Assembly: GCF_900475315.1 (NCBI RefSeq)
Contig: NZ_LS483369.1
Location: forward strand, 1,488,001-1,552,000
Direction of reading: 5' to 3'
Length of the DNA stretch: 64,000 bases
From: Neisseria cinerea
Lineage (GTDB): Bacteria > Pseudomonadota > Gammaproteobacteria > Burkholderiales > Neisseriaceae
Below, piece by piece: positions 1 through 8,139 of this stretch (its first letter is position 1; each line of letters opens with the position of its first letter). The notes beneath the pieces are model-generated. The model made no database searches, was not told the DNA's origin, and saw only the letters and a program-made list of their open reading frames with translations. The position numbers and the translations under genes are program-made.

Positions 1-832
1 CATCGACTTCCTCTTGGGCTATTTGAAACAGCTCCTGCCGCGCCGCCCCGATTTAAAAGTCATCATCACCTCGGCAACCATAGACGCAGAACGCTTCTCC
101 CAACACTTCAACGGCGCGCCCGTACTGGAAGTGAGCGGGCGCACTTATCCCGTCGAAATCCTCTACCGCCCGCTGACCAGCAAAGACGAAGACGATGCAG
201 AAGTCGAGCTGACCGACGCGATTGTCGATGCGGCGGACGAATTGGCGCGACACGGCGAAGGCGATATTTTGGTGTTTCTGCCAGGCGAACGCGAAATCCG
301 CGAAGCCACCGAAGCTCTGCGCAAATCCCCGCTGCGCCGCAACGACGAAATCCTGCCCCTGTTCGCACGCCTGTCGCACGCCGAACAGCACAAAATCTTC
401 CATCCTTCGGGCGCGAAACGCCGCATCGTGTTAGCAACCAACGTCGCCGAAACCTCGCTCACCGTGCCGGGCATCAAATACGTCATCGACACCGGCCTCG
501 CGCGCGTCAAACGCTATTCCGCACGGGCGAAGGTGGAACAGCTCCATGTAGAGAAAATCTCCCAAGCCGCCGCCCGCCAACGTTCCGGCCGCTGCGGCCG
601 CGTCTCCGCAGGCGTGTGTATCCGACTGTTTTCAGAAGAAGATTTCAACAGCCGCACCGAATTCACCGACCCCGAAATCGTCCGCAGCAACCTCGCCGCC
701 GTCATCCTACGCATGGCAGCGTTGAAACTGGGCGACGTGGCGGCATTCCCATTCCTCGAAGCACCAGACCAGCGGTATATCAATGACGGTTTTCAGGTGT
801 TGTTGGAGTTGGGTGCGGTGGAGGCCGTCTGA
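1..832 (+). pseudogene. hrpA: ATP-dependent RNA helicase HrpA, N-terminal part (partial, interrupted)
   Basis: DEAH-box RNA helicase acting on RNA and ribosomes. The frame is open from the window edge (base 2), so the gene begins upstream. Visible are motif III (SAT, in VIITSATID), motif V ([14 protein letters not shown]) and motif VI (QRSGRCGR), followed by the start of the winged-helix/HA2 region. The frame stops at 830-832, and that TGA lies inside a DUS (823-832). The E. coli protein continues from the equivalent ELGA into a YKLT-PLG segment. Here the matching RYRLTKLGEQ appears only after 3.18 kb, in the same frame, beyond an RM cassette. The gene is therefore split. Whether this piece is stable or active alone is unknown. 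Family assignment is secure. Confidence 0.9.
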
Positions 833-845
833 AAGTTAATTACAC

Positions 846-874
846 TTGATATTTCATAATAACCCTAATAAAAT
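846..874 (+). promoter_or_regulatory. Predicted promoter of the cassette methyltransferase
   Basis: TTGATA (846-851), a 17-bp spacer and TAAAAT (869-874) form a good sigma-70 promoter 37 bp before the methyltransferase start. A Shine-Dalgarno AAGGTG lies just before the ATG at 911. Confidence 0.6.
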
Positions 875-899
875 ATCCGGGATTATTACAGGATATTTT
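870..899. promoter_or_regulatory. Perfect inverted repeat over the methyltransferase promoter (candidate operator)
   Basis: AAAATATCC (870-878) and GGATATTTT (891-899) are exact inverted 9-mers separated by 12 bp. The repeat overlaps the -10 hexamer and the expected transcription start. The downstream methyltransferase carries an N-terminal helix-turn-helix. In known HTH-fused C5 methyltransferases (M.SsoII, M.EcoRII, M.MspI) that domain represses its own gene, so autorepression here is an inference from that precedent. Confidence 0.55.
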
Positions 900-910
900 A
901 AGGTGATTTT

Positions 911-2158
911 ATGCTTAAATCGTATGTTGAAGAAAAACGTTTGGAACTTGGATTAACGCAAAAAGAATTTGCTCAGTTATTGGGAATGAAAGAAAACGGT
1001 GAAAGAACAGTTCGTGGATGGGAGAGCGGTTTACATAAGCCAAGCCCTGCACGAATGAGGTTAATTCAAAGTTTAAAAGCAGATCATCCATTTAAACAAT
1101 CAACAAATTCACTGTTTACATTTATTGATTTATTTGCAGGCATAGGTGGTATTCGTCTGCCTTTTCAACAGTTAGGAGGAGAATGTGTTTTTTCAAGCGA
1201 AATAGATAAGCATGCACAAAAAACCTATTTTGCGAATTATGGAGAATATCCAAGCGGAGATATTACGCAAATTTTAGCCGATCAAATCCCAGATCATGAT
1301 ATTTTATTAGCCGGATTTCCATGCCAAGCTTTTTCTCAAGCTGGCCTTAAAAAAGGATTTCAAGATACTCGTGGAACAATGTTTTTTGAAATTCAACGTA
1401 TTTTGGTAGAAAAACGTCCTAAAGTATTTTTATTGGAAAATGTTAAGCGTTTAAAAACAGATCGAAAAGGACAGACCTTTCAAACAATTTATGACATCTT
1501 GACTGGACAATATCAGGGAGAACCTGATAGCGATATTCCAATGTCTACCGAAGCAAGAAAAGCATTTTTTAAAAAACTTAATTACTGGGTAGATTTTAAA
1601 GTCTTGCGAGCCTCTGATTTTGGCGTGCCTCAAAATCGGGAACGTATTTTTATCGTTGGTTTTAATAAAGATTACTTTAATAAAATTAGTGACTTTTCGG
1701 AAATTTTTTCTTTTCCTGAGCCAACTTTTAAAAGAACAAAAGTTGGAGACATATTGGAATATATTTCAGCAGATGATACAACTTACACACTTTCGGACAA
1801 TTTGTGGCAGGGACATCAAAAAAGAAAAGCGGAACATATCGAAAAAGGTAATGGTTTTGGTTATAGTCTATTTAACTCAGAAAGTGAATATACCAATACC
1901 ATTAGTGCACGATATTATAAAGATGGCTCAGAAGCCTTGATTGATCAATCTCATTTTGGGAAAAACCCAAGAATGCTTACTCCGAGAGAGTGTGCTCGTT
2001 TACAAGGATTCCCAGAGAATTATTTGGTTGATGCTGTTTCAAAAGCACAATCCTATAAACAATTTGGTAATTCTGTTTGTGTGAAAGTAATTGAGGCAGT
2101 TGCTAAAAAAATGCTTTCTGCTTTAGAAAAAGCAGAAAGCATACAAAGACAATTCTAA
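911..2158 (+). CDS. DNA cytosine-5 methyltransferase with N-terminal HTH (type II RM system 1)
   Basis: 415 aa. Residues 1-58 are a Cro/C1-type helix-turn-helix (LTQKEFAQLLG, WESG). From residue 70 the C5 methyltransferase motifs follow in order: I (DLFAGIGG), IV (GFPCQAFS, catalytic Cys138), VI (LENV), VIII (QNRERIFI), IX (TPRECARLQGFP) and X (FGNSV). It should methylate cytosine in the host genome and protect it from the endonuclease encoded convergently at 2172-2954. The HTH probably represses its own promoter at the 870-899 repeat. AT-rich codon use contrasts with hrpA on both sides, which points to recent acquisition. The recognition sequence cannot be read from the protein. The start is supported by AAGGTG 6-11 bases upstream. 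Confidence 0.93.
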   Translation: MLKSYVEEKRLELGLTQKEFAQLLGMKENGERTVRGWESGLHKPSPARMRLIQSLKADHPFKQSTNSLFTFIDLFAGIGGIRLPFQQLGGECVFSSEIDKHAQKTYFANYGEYPSGDITQILADQIPDHDILLAGFPCQAFSQAGLKKGFQDTRGTMFFEIQRILVEKRPKVFLLENVKRLKTDRKGQTFQTIYDILTGQYQGEPDSDIPMSTEARKAFFKKLNYWVDFKVLRASDFGVPQNRERIFIVGFNKDYFNKISDFSEIFSFPEPTFKRTKVGDILEYISADDTTYTLSDNLWQGHQKRKAEHIEKGNGFGYSLFNSESEYTNTISARYYKDGSEALIDQSHFGKNPRMLTPRECARLQGFPENYLVDAVSKAQSYKQFGNSVCVKVIEAVAKKMLSALEKAESIQRQF

Positions 2159-2171
2159 AATTTTTAATTAC

Positions 2172-2954
2172 TTAATTTTCTTGAGGAAAGGGAGGGTATT
2201 TACGCACAATCAGTGAATCCCAATAAGTATTATTAGCTCTCCATTGGGAATAGTTGCGTTCATTACCCTCATACATGCCGCTATCAAAGAAGACGACCCC
2301 TGATCGTACCAATTTAAGCCAATTTTCAAAATTCATTGGCTCACCGAAAACAATGGTACGATAGACACCACAGTCATCTTGTAAACACTTAAACCAGCCA
2401 TTTTGTGAGAATTTTTTTGTAAATTTCGGTTGTAACCATTCTTTACTCCAACTAGCTAATGTTAAATTTTCTTGTTGCAACCAAGTAGGTACTATTTTGT
2501 CTTTATTAGGGCGAGGGTCCTGCGAATAATTATAAACAATTTTAATAGTATCATCTTCATCAATCAACATTTTAGAACCATTCCAAGAAGAAGGTCGATG
2601 AATAGTAGGAATAGGCTCACCAGACCAAGAATAACGCCCATTTTTTTGAGCATTGGGTTTACCGAAAATCTTGATAAATTGAGTTCTACTCAAATTTAAT
2701 TGATTGTTTTTGAAAATATAATAATCAGCACTCCAATCTCCAAATGTTGTTTTACCACTTGTCGTATGATTTTTCATTTCATAACCAAATAAATCTGCTT
2801 CATTATGGGCATTATGGCTAATTCCCATTTGTGTTTCCAACCAATGACCTGCACGGCCATCATGATTTTGATTTAATAGACTGGTATCAGGTTTTTTTTC
2901 ATAAACATTTTCTCTAAATCGACGAATAATTTCTAATTCTTGTTCAATAACCAT
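2172..2954 (-). CDS. Type II restriction endonuclease, MvaI/BcnI-like (RM system 1)
   Basis: 260 aa from the ATG at 2954, chosen because GGAG lies six bases upstream; a TTG at 2966 would add four residues. Residues 40-61 hold E40, D54, E59 and K61 (context EADLFGYEMK). From memory the spacing E-14-D-5-E-2-K equals that of the MvaI active site (E36, D50, E55, K57), a MutH-like monomeric nickase-type PD-(D/E)xK enzyme. MvaI itself cuts CCWGG; specificity here is not inferable. It is convergent with the methyltransferase, 13 bp between stop codons, so the two are expressed from separate promoters. AT-rich, like its partner. Family assignment rests on motif geometry only, without an alignment. 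Confidence 0.8.
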   Translation of the reverse strand: MVIEQELEIIRRFRENVYEKKPDTSLLNQNHDGRAGHWLETQMGISHNAHNEADLFGYEMKNHTTSGKTTFGDWSADYYIFKNNQLNLSRTQFIKIFGKPNAQKNGRYSWSGEPIPTIHRPSSWNGSKMLIDEDDTIKIVYNYSQDPRPNKDKIVPTWLQQENLTLASWSKEWLQPKFTKKFSQNGWFKCLQDDCGVYRTIVFGEPMNFENWLKLVRSGVVFFDSGMYEGNERNYSQWRANNTYWDSLIVRKYPPFPQEN

Positions 2955-3085
2955 TATTTTCTCCAAATTTGTAATAAGGGAGTAATAATATTGGGGGAGA
3001 TAAGTACAAAAACAAGATTAATCTGTAAACTCCGAATTATTATGAGAAATATTGATACTAAGATTATCGATCGATCTAGAAAGCT

Positions 3086-6037
3086 ATGCAAAATATGAAA
3101 AACCAAGTACGCGGATCAGGCATGGATGCCCGACCCAACCCAGCCAATGTTTCAGACGGCCTGCAAAACAGTTCGGGCCATATCGGTACCAACACGCGCT
3201 ACCGCCTGACCAAACTCGGCGAACAAATGGCGCGCCTGCCCATCGACCCGAAAATCGCGCGCATTTTGTTGGCGGCGAAGAAGCACGACTGCATAGCGGA
3301 AATATTGGTAATCGCGTCCGCACTGTCGATTCAAGACCCGCGCGAGCGGCCGCTGGAGGCACGCGATGCCGCGGCCAAGGCGCACGAGCGTTTTACCGAT
3401 AAGCAATCCGACTTTCTTGCCTATCTGAATATTTGGGACAGCTTTCAGCGCGAGCGCGACAAAGGTTTGTCCAACAAGCAGCTGGTGCAGTGGTGTCGTC
3501 AATATTTCCTGTCACACCTGCGGATGCGTGAGTGGCGCGAGCTGCACCACCAGCTTGCCCAAACCGCGATTGAAATGGGTTTGACCACCAAGGAAGTCGC
3601 TTTCAGACGACCTCCCGAAGCCAAGCAACTGACGTCGTCTGAAAACCAAGGCGACCAAGACTTATCCGCCAAACTCAAACAAAAACAACTGGATAAAAAG
3701 CAACACCGCGCCCAAATCCGTGCCGCCAAAGAAGCCGGCTACGAACAAATCCACCGCGCCCTACTGACTGGCCTTATTGCCAACGTCGGCATGAAATCGC
3801 CCGATGGCAACGACTACACCGGCGCGCGCGGCAGCCGCTTCCACCTTTTCCCCGCCTCAGCCCTGTTCAAAGCCAAACCCAAATGGGTGATGGCGGCAGA
3901 ATTGGTTGAAACCACACGCCTTTACGCACGCGACGCCGCCGTTATCCAGCCTGAATGGATAGAGCAGGAAGCGCCGCACCTCGTCCGCTATCATTATTTC
4001 GAGCCGCACTGGGAGCAAAAACGCGGCGAAGTCGTCGCCAGCGAACGCGTGACGCTTTACGGCCTGACCGTATTGCCGCGCCGCCCCGTGTCTTACGGCA
4101 AAGTTGCGCCCGAAGAAGCGCGCGAAATCTTTATCCGCGGCGCATTGGTGGCGCAGGAAAGTAATCTTCAAACGGCCTTTTTTGCCCACAATAAAAAGCT
4201 GATTAAAGAAATTACTGAACTTGAACACAAATCGCGCAAGCAAGACGTATTGGTCGATGACGAAGCCCTGTTTGCGTTTTATAACGAACGTCTACCCGAG
4301 CTGGTGTGGAAAGATGCGAAAGGCGGCGTTTGGGGAAGTGAAGAGGGCGGACAAACCCAGTCGGACAAGACGGTCGGACAAAACGGACAAGCAAACCAGC
4401 GCAACGCAGAGAGTGTGGCGCAAGCCACGCACGCGGATTCCAAAGATGCGTCCAACCGCGTGCGTGAACCGAGTTCACATACCCGACAAAATGTTTCAGA
4501 CGATCCCAAACCCAATAAGCAGCCAGCATCTCAAAAAGGCCGTCTGAAACCTTTGCCCCTTGCCGATATCCGCACCTTTGAAGCCTGGCTCAAAACCGCC
4601 GAACGCGACAATCCGCGCTTGCTGTTCCTCAGCCGCAACGATTTGATGCAACACGCCGCCGCGCACATTACCGAAGAACAGTTCCCCAAATTCTGGCAAA
4701 CCGCAGACGGCAAGTTCAAACTTTCCTACCGCTTCGAGCCGCACCATCCGCTCGACGGCGTGACCATGACCGTGCCGCTGACCGTCCTCAACCGCCTGCA
4801 TGCGCCGTCACTCGAATGGCTGGTGCCTGGTATGTTGCGCGAAAAAATCCAATTGCTGATTAAAGCACTGCCGAAGCAAATCCGCCGCATTTGCGTACCT
4901 GTACCCGATTTCATCACCAAATTTCTCGAAAGCAATCCCGACTGCCAAGCGGCCATCATTCCCCAGTTGGCGCACTTTATCGCCAAAAGTGCCGGCGATA
5001 TGCGGATTCTCGAGCAAATCGACCAAGACGCATGGGCGGCGCAAGAATTGCCCGAACACTGCTATCTGAATCTGCGCATTATCGACGACGGCGGACAAGA
5101 GCTTGCAGGCGGCCGCAAACTGCATGAGTTGCAACAACAACTCGGCCAAGCCGCCGCCGTCACCTTCCGCGACAACACCCAAGAATTTGAGCGCGACAAC
5201 GTTACCGCATGGGACATCGGCACCCTGCCCGAATCCATCAAATTTGCCCGCGGCAAACAACAGCTCACCGGCTACCTCGGCCTGCAAAAAGAAAAAGACG
5301 GCCGCATCGCCCTGCGCCTGTTCGACACCACCGAAGCCGCCGAACAGGCACACCGTCAAGGCGTAATCGAATTGATGAAGCTGCAATTAAAAGAGCAGGT
5401 AAAAGATTTAAACAAAGGCATCCAAGGCTTCACCCAAGCCGCCATGCTGCTCAAACACATCAACGCCGACACCTTGCGCGACGACCTCACACAGGCCGTC
5501 TGTGACCGCGCCTTTATCGGCGAAGACGAGCTGCCGCGCAACGAAAAAGCCTTCAAAGAACAAATCAAACGCGCACGCAGCCGCCTGCCCGCCGTCAAAG
5601 AAGCCCTCAGCCGCTACTTGCAGGAAACCGCAGCCGCCTACGCCGAACTCAACGGCAAACTCGGCAAACATCCATTGACCCACCTCCTAAGACTACGCCT
5701 GCAAACCCTGCTTGCCCCCGGCTTTGCCACCCACACCCCGTGGGCACAATGGCCGCGCCTCCCCATCTACCTCAAAGCCATGACCCTGCGCCTCGAAAAA
5801 TACAGCAGCAACCCCGCCCGCGACGCAGCCCGCGAAGCCGATATTCAAGAGCTGGAACAAATGTGGCAGGAAAAAACCGACGGCTTAGTGAAACAAGGAC
5901 AGCCCGTTTCAGACGACCTCGCCGCGTTTAAATGGATGATTGAAGAATTGAGAGTGTCGCTGTTCGCACAGGAATTGAAGACGCCGTATCCGGTGTCGGT
6001 GAAGAGGTTGGGGAAGGAGTGGGAGAAAATTCCTTAG
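3086..6037 (+). pseudogene. hrpA: HrpA, C-terminal part (HA2, OB-fold and DUF3418 regions), separated from its helicase core
   Basis: 983 codons open from an ATG at 3086. About the first 22 residues come from the cassette edge; hrpA homology resumes near RYRLTKLGEQ. Then follow the HA2 region (LPIDPKIARILLAA, SALSIQDPRERP), the OB-fold and the long C-terminal DUF3418 region. The helicase motifs are all on the other side of the RM cassette, so no ATPase can be made from this part. Around residues 405-485 there is a hydrophilic Q/N/S-rich linker containing degenerate DUS copies (TTTCAGACGA). The reading frame is otherwise intact over 2.9 kb, which suggests the split is recent or that the piece is still translated. 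A weak GAAAG before the ATG is the only ribosome-binding signal. Confidence 0.85.
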
Positions 6038-6107: not shown

Positions 6108-7181
6108 ATGAAAGCAGTAGATTTATTCTGTGGTTGTGGTGGTTTATCAGAGGGTGCTAGGCAAGCTGGTGTTGATATTTTGGCAGGAATTGATATAGAG
6201 AAAAAATATCTTCAAACGTTTGAATATAATTTCCCTAACGCATTGGCTTTAAATAAAAATATTACAATATTTGAACCAGATGATTTATTGACTAGACTAG
6301 GCTTAAAACAAGGTGAGTTAGACTTTATAATAGGTGGGCCACCTTGCCAAGGATTCTCTAAGAATACACCTATATCAAAAAGAAGTAGAGATAGCGAAAA
6401 TAATATTTTAGTTAATTATTTTCTAAGATATTGTGCAAAAATCTTACCAAGAATCATCATAATGGAAAATGTAGCAGAGATGAAAAATGGATTTGATCAG
6501 CACTATACCAAAAAGATAGAAGAGGAATTAAGTAAATTAGGGTATAAAGTGATTCATGGAGTTTTAAATGCGGCTGATTTTGGTGTACCTCAAAATAGAA
6601 AACGAGCTTTTTTTATTGCAAGGCGAGATGGAAAATCTCCCGTATTTCCACAACCCACCCATGCAAAGTACGGAAATATATCCTTAAATAGTCATATTAC
6701 GGTTTGGGAGGCGATCAGTGATTTAGTTGAAACAGCTAAGGCCACAATTGAACAATATAAAACCCCCCCACAAAATTCTTACCAGCTAAATATGCGAGAA
6801 AAATCAGTAGTAGTGCAAAATCATATTAGTAAGAAACTAACCTCTATACAGCAACAAAGAATTAATTCATTACAACCAGGACAGGGAATAAAAGATTTAC
6901 CCGATAAGCTACGCCCCAAAAGTGGTTATAGTGGAGCTTATGGAAGACTAACAAAGGATATGATCATGCCAACAATTACGCGTTGGGTTTTTCATGCTGG
7001 GTCAGGGCGATGGGGACACCCGACTGAGTATAGACTCATTACAATCCGAGAAGCAGCAAGGCTACATAGCTTCCCTGATAAATTTACATTTATTGGTTCA
7101 TACACTGAGCAAGCAGGGCAGGTTGGGAATTCCGTCCCTCCCTTGCTTGCCAAAGCTATTGTTGAAGCACAATTAAATTGA
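6108..7181 (+). CDS. DNA cytosine-5 methyltransferase (type II RM system 2)
   Basis: 357 aa. Motif I FCGCGGLS, IV GGPPCQGFS with catalytic Cys80, VI MENV, VIII QNRKRAFFIA, IX (TIREAARLHSFP) and X (VGNSVPP) are all present; length is normal. The gene begins 70 bp after the hrpA stop and is AT-rich. Its 3' end overlaps the convergent endonuclease gene by nine bases, so both reading frames end inside each other. The controller gene completes the three-gene M / R / C set. This set and its position behind hrpA remind me of the meningococcal NmeDI system, but I could not verify that. Confidence 0.93.
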   Translation: MKAVDLFCGCGGLSEGARQAGVDILAGIDIEKKYLQTFEYNFPNALALNKNITIFEPDDLLTRLGLKQGELDFIIGGPPCQGFSKNTPISKRSRDSENNILVNYFLRYCAKILPRIIIMENVAEMKNGFDQHYTKKIEEELSKLGYKVIHGVLNAADFGVPQNRKRAFFIARRDGKSPVFPQPTHAKYGNISLNSHITVWEAISDLVETAKATIEQYKTPPQNSYQLNMREKSVVVQNHISKKLTSIQQQRINSLQPGQGIKDLPDKLRPKSGYSGAYGRLTKDMIMPTITRWVFHAGSGRWGHPTEYRLITIREAARLHSFPDKFTFIGSYTEQAGQVGNSVPPLLAKAIVEAQLN

Positions 7182-7919
7182 ATTTAAGCCCTCTAGCAAA
7201 TGGAAAAATTGTTCTTGAGTTAATCTATTACTGGGGAAGGGAAATTGTATTTTATGTGAGGAACAAACTTCATCCCACCATTTCCTTTCCCCATTAAAAT
7301 GAAGTTGATTTTCTCCAAGCCCATGCCACGCAAACCATTTACATTGCGTTGGAATGTGTATTCCATGTAAAGCAGGTAGCTGTTCCTTCCCTGTAGTCTT
7401 TTTTGGAGTAGACCATGCCCACATAAAATCACTTGGGGAAAACAAAATTGGATTGTCTCTAGTACATAATTTCTTCTCAAAATATGTTAACTTAGTTTCT
7501 TCTACAATTAGACGTGAATACCCAACTTCATCTAAATTATATTTATTTATACTCTCTAGAATATGATCATTACAAAATTCAATTAATGTATTGCCTAATA
7601 TTTGAGTCGCCTCTTTAGCAGATGAATCATTTGCATATGAAGCAGAAATTAAAACATCTGAATTAGGAATTTTCGCTCTTTTCCATGTAATAGGTGTATC
7701 AATTTTAGTTGATTTAACTTGCCATCCTACTCTGTTGCTTATGTCTACAACATCCACAAAATCATAGGTTTTTAATACTTTGGCTTTTCTAACATCTCCT
7801 AATATATATTCCATCAGAGAACCTGGTACATTATCGGTAGCAAAAGGCAACTTTAGATAGCCCTCCAGTATTTTCTGTAACCGAGCCATCTGATAGACAT
7901 CAGAATATACTTTACTCAT
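7173..7919 (-). CDS. Probable type II restriction endonuclease (RM system 2)
   Basis: 248 aa from the ATG at 7919, which has TAAGG nine bases upstream and lies ten bases after the controller stop; a TTG at 7940 would overlap the controller gene. Function is inferred mainly from context: it follows a C-protein gene and faces a C5 methyltransferase. The segment with D53, D56, D59 and then GWQVKS (Q67, K69) looks like a PD-(D/E)xK core in which the usual Glu is Gln, a variant known in some restriction enzymes. The C-terminal third has several Trp/His residues (MWAWSTPKK, CKWFAWHG). I do not recognise a named family. AT-rich. Confidence 0.75.
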   Translation of the reverse strand: MSKVYSDVYQMARLQKILEGYLKLPFATDNVPGSLMEYILGDVRKAKVLKTYDFVDVVDISNRVGWQVKSTKIDTPITWKRAKIPNSDVLISASYANDSSAKEATQILGNTLIEFCNDHILESINKYNLDEVGYSRLIVEETKLTYFEKKLCTRDNPILFSPSDFMWAWSTPKKTTGKEQLPALHGIHIPTQCKWFAWHGLGENQLHFNGERKWWDEVCSSHKIQFPFPSNRLTQEQFFHLLEGLNSI

Positions 7920-7929
7920 TAGCGTAACC

Positions 7930-8139
7930 TTAAAAGTCAATTAACTCAGACAACGATATATTTAATGCATTACTAAGTGCACTCAATGTAACAATTGTTG
8001 GATTCCGTTTCCCACGTTCTAATGAACTGATGTAGGTACGATGTAGTCCTGACGTTTCCGCCAATTGTTCTTGAGATAAACCTTTTTCTTGACGAATACT
8101 TGCCAGATGTAAACCAAATTTTTGAAGTAAATTTTCCAT
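7930..8139 (-). CDS. RM controller protein (C protein), Xre-type HTH
   Basis: 69 aa, the typical size of a C protein. The helix-turn-helix covers residues 18-50 (GLSQEQLAETSG, RTYISSLERGKRNP). C proteins bind their own promoter to activate, then repress, the C-R transcript and so delay endonuclease production when the system enters a new host. Here the gene lies directly upstream of the endonuclease on the same strand, the usual C-R operon. Candidate operators are described upstream (8164-8192) and at the methyltransferase promoter. Confidence 0.88.
   Translation of the reverse strand: MENLLQKFGLHLASIRQEKGLSQEQLAETSGLHRTYISSLERGKRNPTIVTLSALSNALNISLSELIDF

Follow-up and report, generated by a model that had tools for sequence, protein, structure and literature searches.

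The hrpA helicase gene of Neisseria cinerea and of most Neisseria species examined is split at a common site that holds variable gene cassettes

The window analysed here, a 64,000-nucleotide stretch of the Neisseria cinerea chromosome (positions 1,488,001 to 1,552,000 of NZ_LS483369.1; the genome is this one contig of 1,832,904 bases), opens within the gene of the DEAH-box RNA helicase HrpA. This core gene is present as two genes, hrpA-N for the left and hrpA-C for the right half of the protein, between which lies a restriction-modification (RM) cassette (Table 1). The same split is found at the same place in most Neisseria species examined, with many different genes in the gap. In the window the two hrpA reading frames are 2,253 bp apart, so that HrpA is not encoded as a single polypeptide. 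In contrast, E. coli HrpA (PDB 6zww, 9gft, 9ggr and others) is one chain, along which both halves align collinearly; the window part of hrpA-N corresponds to chain residues 206-475, and the cut falls at residues 475-484. The helicase, ratchet, OB and DUF3418 regions of HrpA were all found in a scan of the window part of hrpA-N together with hrpA-C, and we take the start of hrpA-C to belong to the winged-helix domain. The cassette differs clearly from its surroundings in GC content (33.5% for 837-3083 versus 59.6% on the left and 56.0% on the right side).

Table 1. Features of the split hrpA locus in the N. cinerea window (DUS, DNA uptake sequence; HTH, helix-turn-helix; 5mC, 5-methylcytosine)
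Feature	Position	Strand	Evidence or remark
3' part of hrpA-N (DEAH helicase core up to ELGAVEAV and stop)	1-832	+	TIGR01967 HrpA, 1.9e-145 for 2-832; gene start upstream of the window; TGA stop at 830-832
AG-type DUS, core GCCGTCTGAA at 824-833	822-833	+	Its TGA is the hrpA-N stop codon
Exchangeable RM cassette	~835-3083		Identity to other split alleles ends at ~834 and returns at ~3084
Perfect 10-bp inverted repeat (869-878 / 891-900)	869-900	+	Upstream of the methyltransferase gene
5mC DNA methyltransferase with N-terminal HTH	911-2158	+	PF00145, 2.3e-99; HTH_3, 2.9e-07
LlaMI-family restriction endonuclease	2172-2954	-	PF09562, 7.6e-67; PADLOC REase_II, 8.5e-79; convergent with the methyltransferase gene
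hrpA-C, 983 aa, own start ATG (MQNMKNQ...)	3086-6037	+	Rest of winged helix, ratchet (HA2_C), OB fold, DUF3418
37-codon linker ahead of RYRLTKLGEQ	3086-3196	+	Common to split alleles; absent from the 18 intact joints read
Inverted AG-type DUS within the linker, core 3151-3160	3151-3162	-	Sequence scan

An earlier reading of this DNA (the original prediction) had placed the cassette at 829-3150 and proposed that it had broken hrpA at a DUS. An RM pair does lie between two parts in the same frame, both of which match HrpA, and the 2,322 bp then assigned to the cassette are a multiple of three. Likewise, the inverted DUS at 3151-3160 is present, and the cassette lacks a transposase, its content being the methyltransferase and the LlaMI-type endonuclease with no third long gene in the open reading frame (ORF) list. 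The left DUS exists as well, although its core is shifted by one base from the 823-832 originally given. The right edge was misplaced: in split alleles of other species, the right-hand gene begins with the conserved stretch 3086-3196 (MQNMKNQVRGSG...RYRLT), and the exchanged cassette therefore spans ~835-3083. Because HrpA-C has its own start codon, the shared frame of the two halves (chance 1/3) is weak evidence.

The distribution of the split was determined in 83 genomes of the family, one per species, 46 of which belong to the genus; the state of hrpA was read from the length of the open frame in a search with the left piece (genome numbers, G, and locus numbers, L, are our own). Within the genus, hrpA is split at the same place in 34 of the 46 genomes and intact in nine, while three are without a call (including G031, which has a split-type start of the right half). 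Family-wide, 37 genes are split (open frames of 466-597 aa), 40 have a long frame (at least 1,290 aa) and three are truncated (G033, G052, G057), with no match in another three genomes (G030, G031, G073). The split genes outside the genus are those of G048 and G049, which represent one genus, and of G082. All share one break point, with ELGAVE.. at the end of the left gene (ELGAIAEV in G082) and the HrpA sequence taken up again in the right gene from (R)Y(R/Q)LT. Both halves were matched in all 34 split genus genomes; in Neisseria elongata (G012; L095/L204) the two matches, with frames of 464 and 1,347 aa, are separated by ~34 kb of one contig, have opposite orientations and lie beside different neighbour genes.

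The joint was read in 18 of the 40 long-frame genes, 17 of which show a spacing of exactly 14 residues from ELGAx to RLPxD (KLPxD in one). The intact-type hrpA of G066 (L198) has 47 residues at this point, i.e. an in-frame insert of ~33 codons, unlike the linker, exactly where the others split. A DUS-like core, an MQ start or any trace of 3086-3196 was found in none of the 18 joints. The original prediction had expected intact alleles to show a DUS at the joint and to lack most of 3090-3150; the former is seen in 0 of 18, and the latter stretch is indeed absent from all of them, being the start of HrpA-C in split alleles. The empty site that it predicted, GCCGTTTCAGACGGC, occurs at no joint examined, and this 15-base string was found four times in three hrpA loci (G016 twice, G031 and G038 once each), always away from the joint.

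Both halves have the features of separate genes. HrpA-N ends in ELGAVE.. and a stop codon, which lies inside a DUS core in 24 of the 37 split left ends, and hrpA-C has its own start, ATG CA(A/G) (MQ, then N, E, H, D or P), located 11-41 codons upstream of the right-half anchor in 33 of the 37 split right ends (the exceptions being G006, G020, G035 and G082). The hrpA-C frame comprises at least 910 aa in 35 of 36 measured cases, with that of G020 beginning at an internal ATG. Both halves are under purifying selection: the median pairwise ratio of nonsynonymous to synonymous substitutions (dN/dS) of the left half is 0.123 for split (629 pairs) versus 0.119 for intact alleles (34 pairs), and that of the right half 0.188 (559 pairs) versus 0.175 (29 pairs), counting pairs with a dS of 0.05-1.2. 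The left-half analysis and tree were made without G063, those of the right half without G020 (frame) and the intact alleles G046, G047, G051, G054, G063, G066 and G081, for which the script gave no anchor or split point. The hrpA-C linker contains a poly-C tract before YRLT in G011 (L083; 9 bases) and in G020 (L094; 8 bases). The frame opened by ATGCAA in G020 meets a stop codon, possibly a sign of phase variation of hrpA-C in this genome.

In 35 genomes both ends of the gap lie on one stretch. The cargo between them is 882-10,515 bp long (median 2,247), has a median GC content of 40.8% compared with 57.9% for hrpA-N, and contains 0.32 DUS per kb, compared with 1.28 per kb in the hrpA halves. 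Its ORFs of at least 80 aa form 49 clusters, four of which stem from the right flank in G012 while two are hrpA fragments (counts made without G012L, G031 and G049), and no cargo cluster is found in more than 10 genomes. Whole-gene cassettes thus differ between genomes at one place, as in a minimal mobile element (MME), here across species with one genome each. Cargo content was assigned on cluster representatives by Pfam (40 of the 49; the other nine are three of G008, four of G012 and the two hrpA fragments) and PADLOC (20 representatives). Defence-type genes are present in 15 of the 35 cargos. Five of these are RM cargos: that of the window (G000), G005 (HindVP), G016 (NgoBV), G024 (BpuJI-like with two methyltransferases) and G011 (a D12 methyltransferase whose partner has no match). 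The Mokosh genes MkoA/MkoB are found in G040, G041 and G045, a retron-type reverse transcriptase with an HTH protein in G020 (L094) and G025 (L078), AriAB in G006, DarT/DarG in G009, the PtuA-like, Septu-like PDC-M01A/B in G044, GmrSD/HEC-06 in G021 and CAP12-TIR PDC-S35 in G001. An AAA_14/DUF4143 protein, the PADLOC candidate PDC-S01, is also present in six of the 15 (G006, G009, G040, G041, G044, G045).

The other 20 cargos contain sulfatase-family, PIN7, Fic, cold-shock, hydrolase, SDR, TetR or transposase-family genes, or unknowns. Representatives from G011 (second gene), G022, G035 and G042 have no Pfam or PADLOC match. Unmatched cargo proteins, encoded at L076:7268-8083, L084:8576-9778, L083:8703-9824 and L069:6962-7678, where other species carry defence genes, are candidates for new defence proteins. 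The sulfatase cassette is present in 10 genomes, two of which (G005, G024) were also counted as RM cargos; it adjoins hrpA-C in all 10, and another ORF lies to its left in seven. Its possible identity with pptA was considered; pptA and dca are presumably located in the dcw cluster. In the literature, NMB0415 is the pptA gene, placed in an MME and described with a poly-G tract. A run of at least six G occurs in only one of the 10 sulfatase cargos (G005), outside the sulfatase gene, and we do not equate the two.

Several observations fit an exchange of the split and intact states by homologous recombination. Pieces of hrpA are found within cargos: in G045, a 5' piece of hrpA-C (335-base alignment, 92.5% identical to G040) lies within 5 bp of a 3' piece of hrpA-N (168 bases), between two cargo units, and in G024 a 253-bp piece of hrpA-C, 91.7% identical to that of G022, is located between the RM block and the sulfatase cassette. 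Furthermore, the left-half and right-half trees differ in where they place, for example, G004 and G012, and well-supported branches force at least five changes of state in the left tree and at least four in the right one, which is a quick version. Both trees place the intact hrpA of G036 and G002 within clades of split alleles, in agreement with the possible reversibility, in an evolutionary sense, that had been proposed earlier; repeated independent splitting is the alternative to an exchange of states. Neisseria are naturally transformable, and the function and dialects of their DUS are established. A DUS-like core of one of four kinds is present in 28 of 35 linkers, and DUS at both joints should favour the uptake of cassette DNA. 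Of the original proposal that the cassette is exchanged by transformation via DUS, the position in a core gene, the lack of a mobility gene, the DUS at the joints and the signs of homologous recombination stand; transformation is the route that we infer.

Taken together, we consider hrpA to be a stably split core gene with an MME-like cargo site in its gap, in N. cinerea and in most Neisseria species examined, and HrpA probably to consist of two chains; we put the probability of this reading at roughly three in four. In it, hrpA-N encodes the DEAH motor, with a stop codon that often belongs to a DUS, and hrpA-C, which has a conserved ATG of its own, encodes the rest of the winged helix, the ratchet, the OB fold and DUF3418; the two chains would probably still make one helicase. 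Cassettes, often with anti-phage genes, would arrive on transforming DNA and be swapped by homologous recombination in the flanking hrpA halves. It is conceivable, at somewhat less than even odds, that HrpA of Neisseria works as a helicase of two subunits and that the break in its gene is maintained as a landing pad for defence cassettes, which can also revert to the intact gene. A transforming fragment across the joint would then bring homology, uptake signal and cargo together, because the flanks are the selected halves of a core gene and the DUS at the joint doubles as a stop codon.

A number of points weigh against a stably split, two-chain HrpA with exchangeable cargo. The left end lacks a DUS stop in 13 of the 37 cases, and the DUS statistic is naive, since hrpA loci contain many DUS (1.05 per kb) and the split alleles share ancestry. 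In G042 (a 515-aa frame) and G020, hrpA-C is either damaged or out of frame, and in the Eikenella metagenome-assembled genome G049 (L193; 95% complete), which has hrpA-N with a DUS stop, hrpA-C was not detected in the assembly. A Shine-Dalgarno-like motif precedes hrpA-C in 0 of 33 cases; we do not regard this as peculiar to hrpA-C, as hrpA-N showed no such motif in 0 of 33 or more comparable cases. The dN/dS pairs are not independent, the 15 of 35 defence cargos are a raw count with no baseline from other accessory sites, and with one genome per species exchange within a species is not seen. The assembly of N. elongata is a draft, in which the separation of the halves may be a misassembly, and binding or joint action of the two chains is a presumption.

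The most serious competitor to a two-chain helicase is that the halves are two proteins with separate functions. They are separate genes, distant from each other in the N. elongata assembly, but they occur together in every split genus genome, and the cut runs through what is a single chain in E. coli, so that we consider separate functions unlikely. Still less probable is a lost helicase whose decaying halves are kept only as recombination arms for cargo: the lesions in G042 and G020 and the undetected hrpA-C of G049 would fit decay, yet split halves are constrained about as strongly as intact ones, and nearly all measured hrpA-C frames are long. We regard it as very improbable that the cargos represent a site-specific mobile element using the split as its attachment site. 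There is indeed one site with many cargos and a sharp left border, and transposase-family genes occur in four of the 35 cargos (Y1_Tnp in G004, G010 and G082, IS1595 in G048); however, no integrase or recombinase family was found in the 40 of 49 cluster representatives scanned, no single cluster is widespread, and the hrpA fragments in cargo point to homology-driven events. Finally, a recent insertion of the RM cassette at a DUS, which disrupted hrpA in this lineage so that its exact removal would restore the original gene, as first proposed, is largely refuted, for despite the in-frame halves, the DUS on both sides, the foreign GC content, an endonuclease found in only one of the 46 genus genomes, the window's own, and a methyltransferase with no near-identical relative among them, the same break with many different cargos is present in 33 further genus genomes without this endonuclease, the 18 intact joints read contain neither a DUS nor the 3086-3196 linker, and hrpA-C has its own conserved start.

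MMEs of Neisseria were reportedly described by Saunders and Snyder in 2002 and by Snyder et al. in 2007. They have no mobility genes of their own, a property additional to the definition used here. That definition is the one in PMC3082526, and judged by it the hrpA locus behaves like an MME: its conserved flanks enclose whole-gene cassettes that differ between genomes, some of the cargo consists of RM genes, and homologous recombination is the likely route. It differs in that a single core gene, split in two, provides both flanks (conserved according to their dN/dS) in place of two separate genes, and in that the site is occupied more often than not among the species examined. The same text describes the pheS/pheT locus of N. 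meningitidis, where a type II RM system lies between two core genes and the content varies by strain; this resembles the RM system with variable content between core sequences seen here, although pheS and pheT are separate genes and hrpA is cut inside its reading frame. Similarly, the core-gene defence hotspots of Pseudomonas aeruginosa (PMC10250203) are reportedly fixed chromosomal places rich in defence genes, whereas the place described here is inside a split gene. The literature searched, whose scope did not extend to the original MME list (Snyder 2007), yielded no account of a DEAH-box hrpA split in Neisseria. In the Neisseria literature consulted, hrpA denotes a different gene, that of the hrpBAS transcripts, and PMC7973814 reports NmeAI flanked by the putative DNA helicase locus NEIS1987, which may or may not be hrpA. 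If the split-gene reading is correct, nature has run a split-protein experiment on a conserved helicase, which lives as two genes in most species of a genus, and the gap is a place where Neisseria defence systems can readily be looked for. The locus would also be a concrete test of how uptake sequences, homologous flanks and selection together make a cargo site without a dedicated mobile element.

The RM pair in the window is of the LlaMI type II kind, with the LlaMI-family endonuclease (PF09562) adjoining a 5mC methyltransferase (PF00145). Among 369 genomes of the class, the endonuclease gave a single weak match besides its own genome. Plasmids yielded closer relatives, the nearest from Psychrobacter and Acinetobacter, with methyltransferases 74% and 69% identical beside the endonucleases. 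These LlaMI-type systems on the Moraxellaceae plasmids pTR3_5 and pP62BP1 have the same convergent layout (methyltransferases 69% and 74%, endonucleases 52% and 63% identical), but they are plasmid-borne, whereas the pair described here is chromosomal and located within split hrpA. We take the specificity of LlaMI-type systems to be CCNGG. The left arm of the inverted repeat at 869-900 overlaps the only CCNGG of the cassette (877-881); judging from its position, the repeat is a plausible candidate operator for the HTH of the methyltransferase, by which the RM pair would possibly be self-regulated. CCNGG is scarce in the window (116 observed versus 261 expected), and avoidance was considered as a trace of this RM system. 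The scarcity is general to the genus (observed/expected in hrpA loci 0.32 here versus a median of 0.33 in other genomes) and therefore says nothing on this RM pair.

Two further stretches of the window are of note. Directly after hrpA-C, a second RM-like block (6108-8139, 35% GC) encodes a 5mC methyltransferase, a protein without Pfam match and an HTH regulator; in the other hrpA loci examined, the latter two proteins have no match and the methyltransferase has only distant ones, so that a further variable site may lie on the 3' side of hrpA. Within hrpA-C, before the DUF3418 part, there is a second variable stretch at ~4280-4555, where identity to many relatives falls to ~60% and which includes a DUS at 4537-4548.

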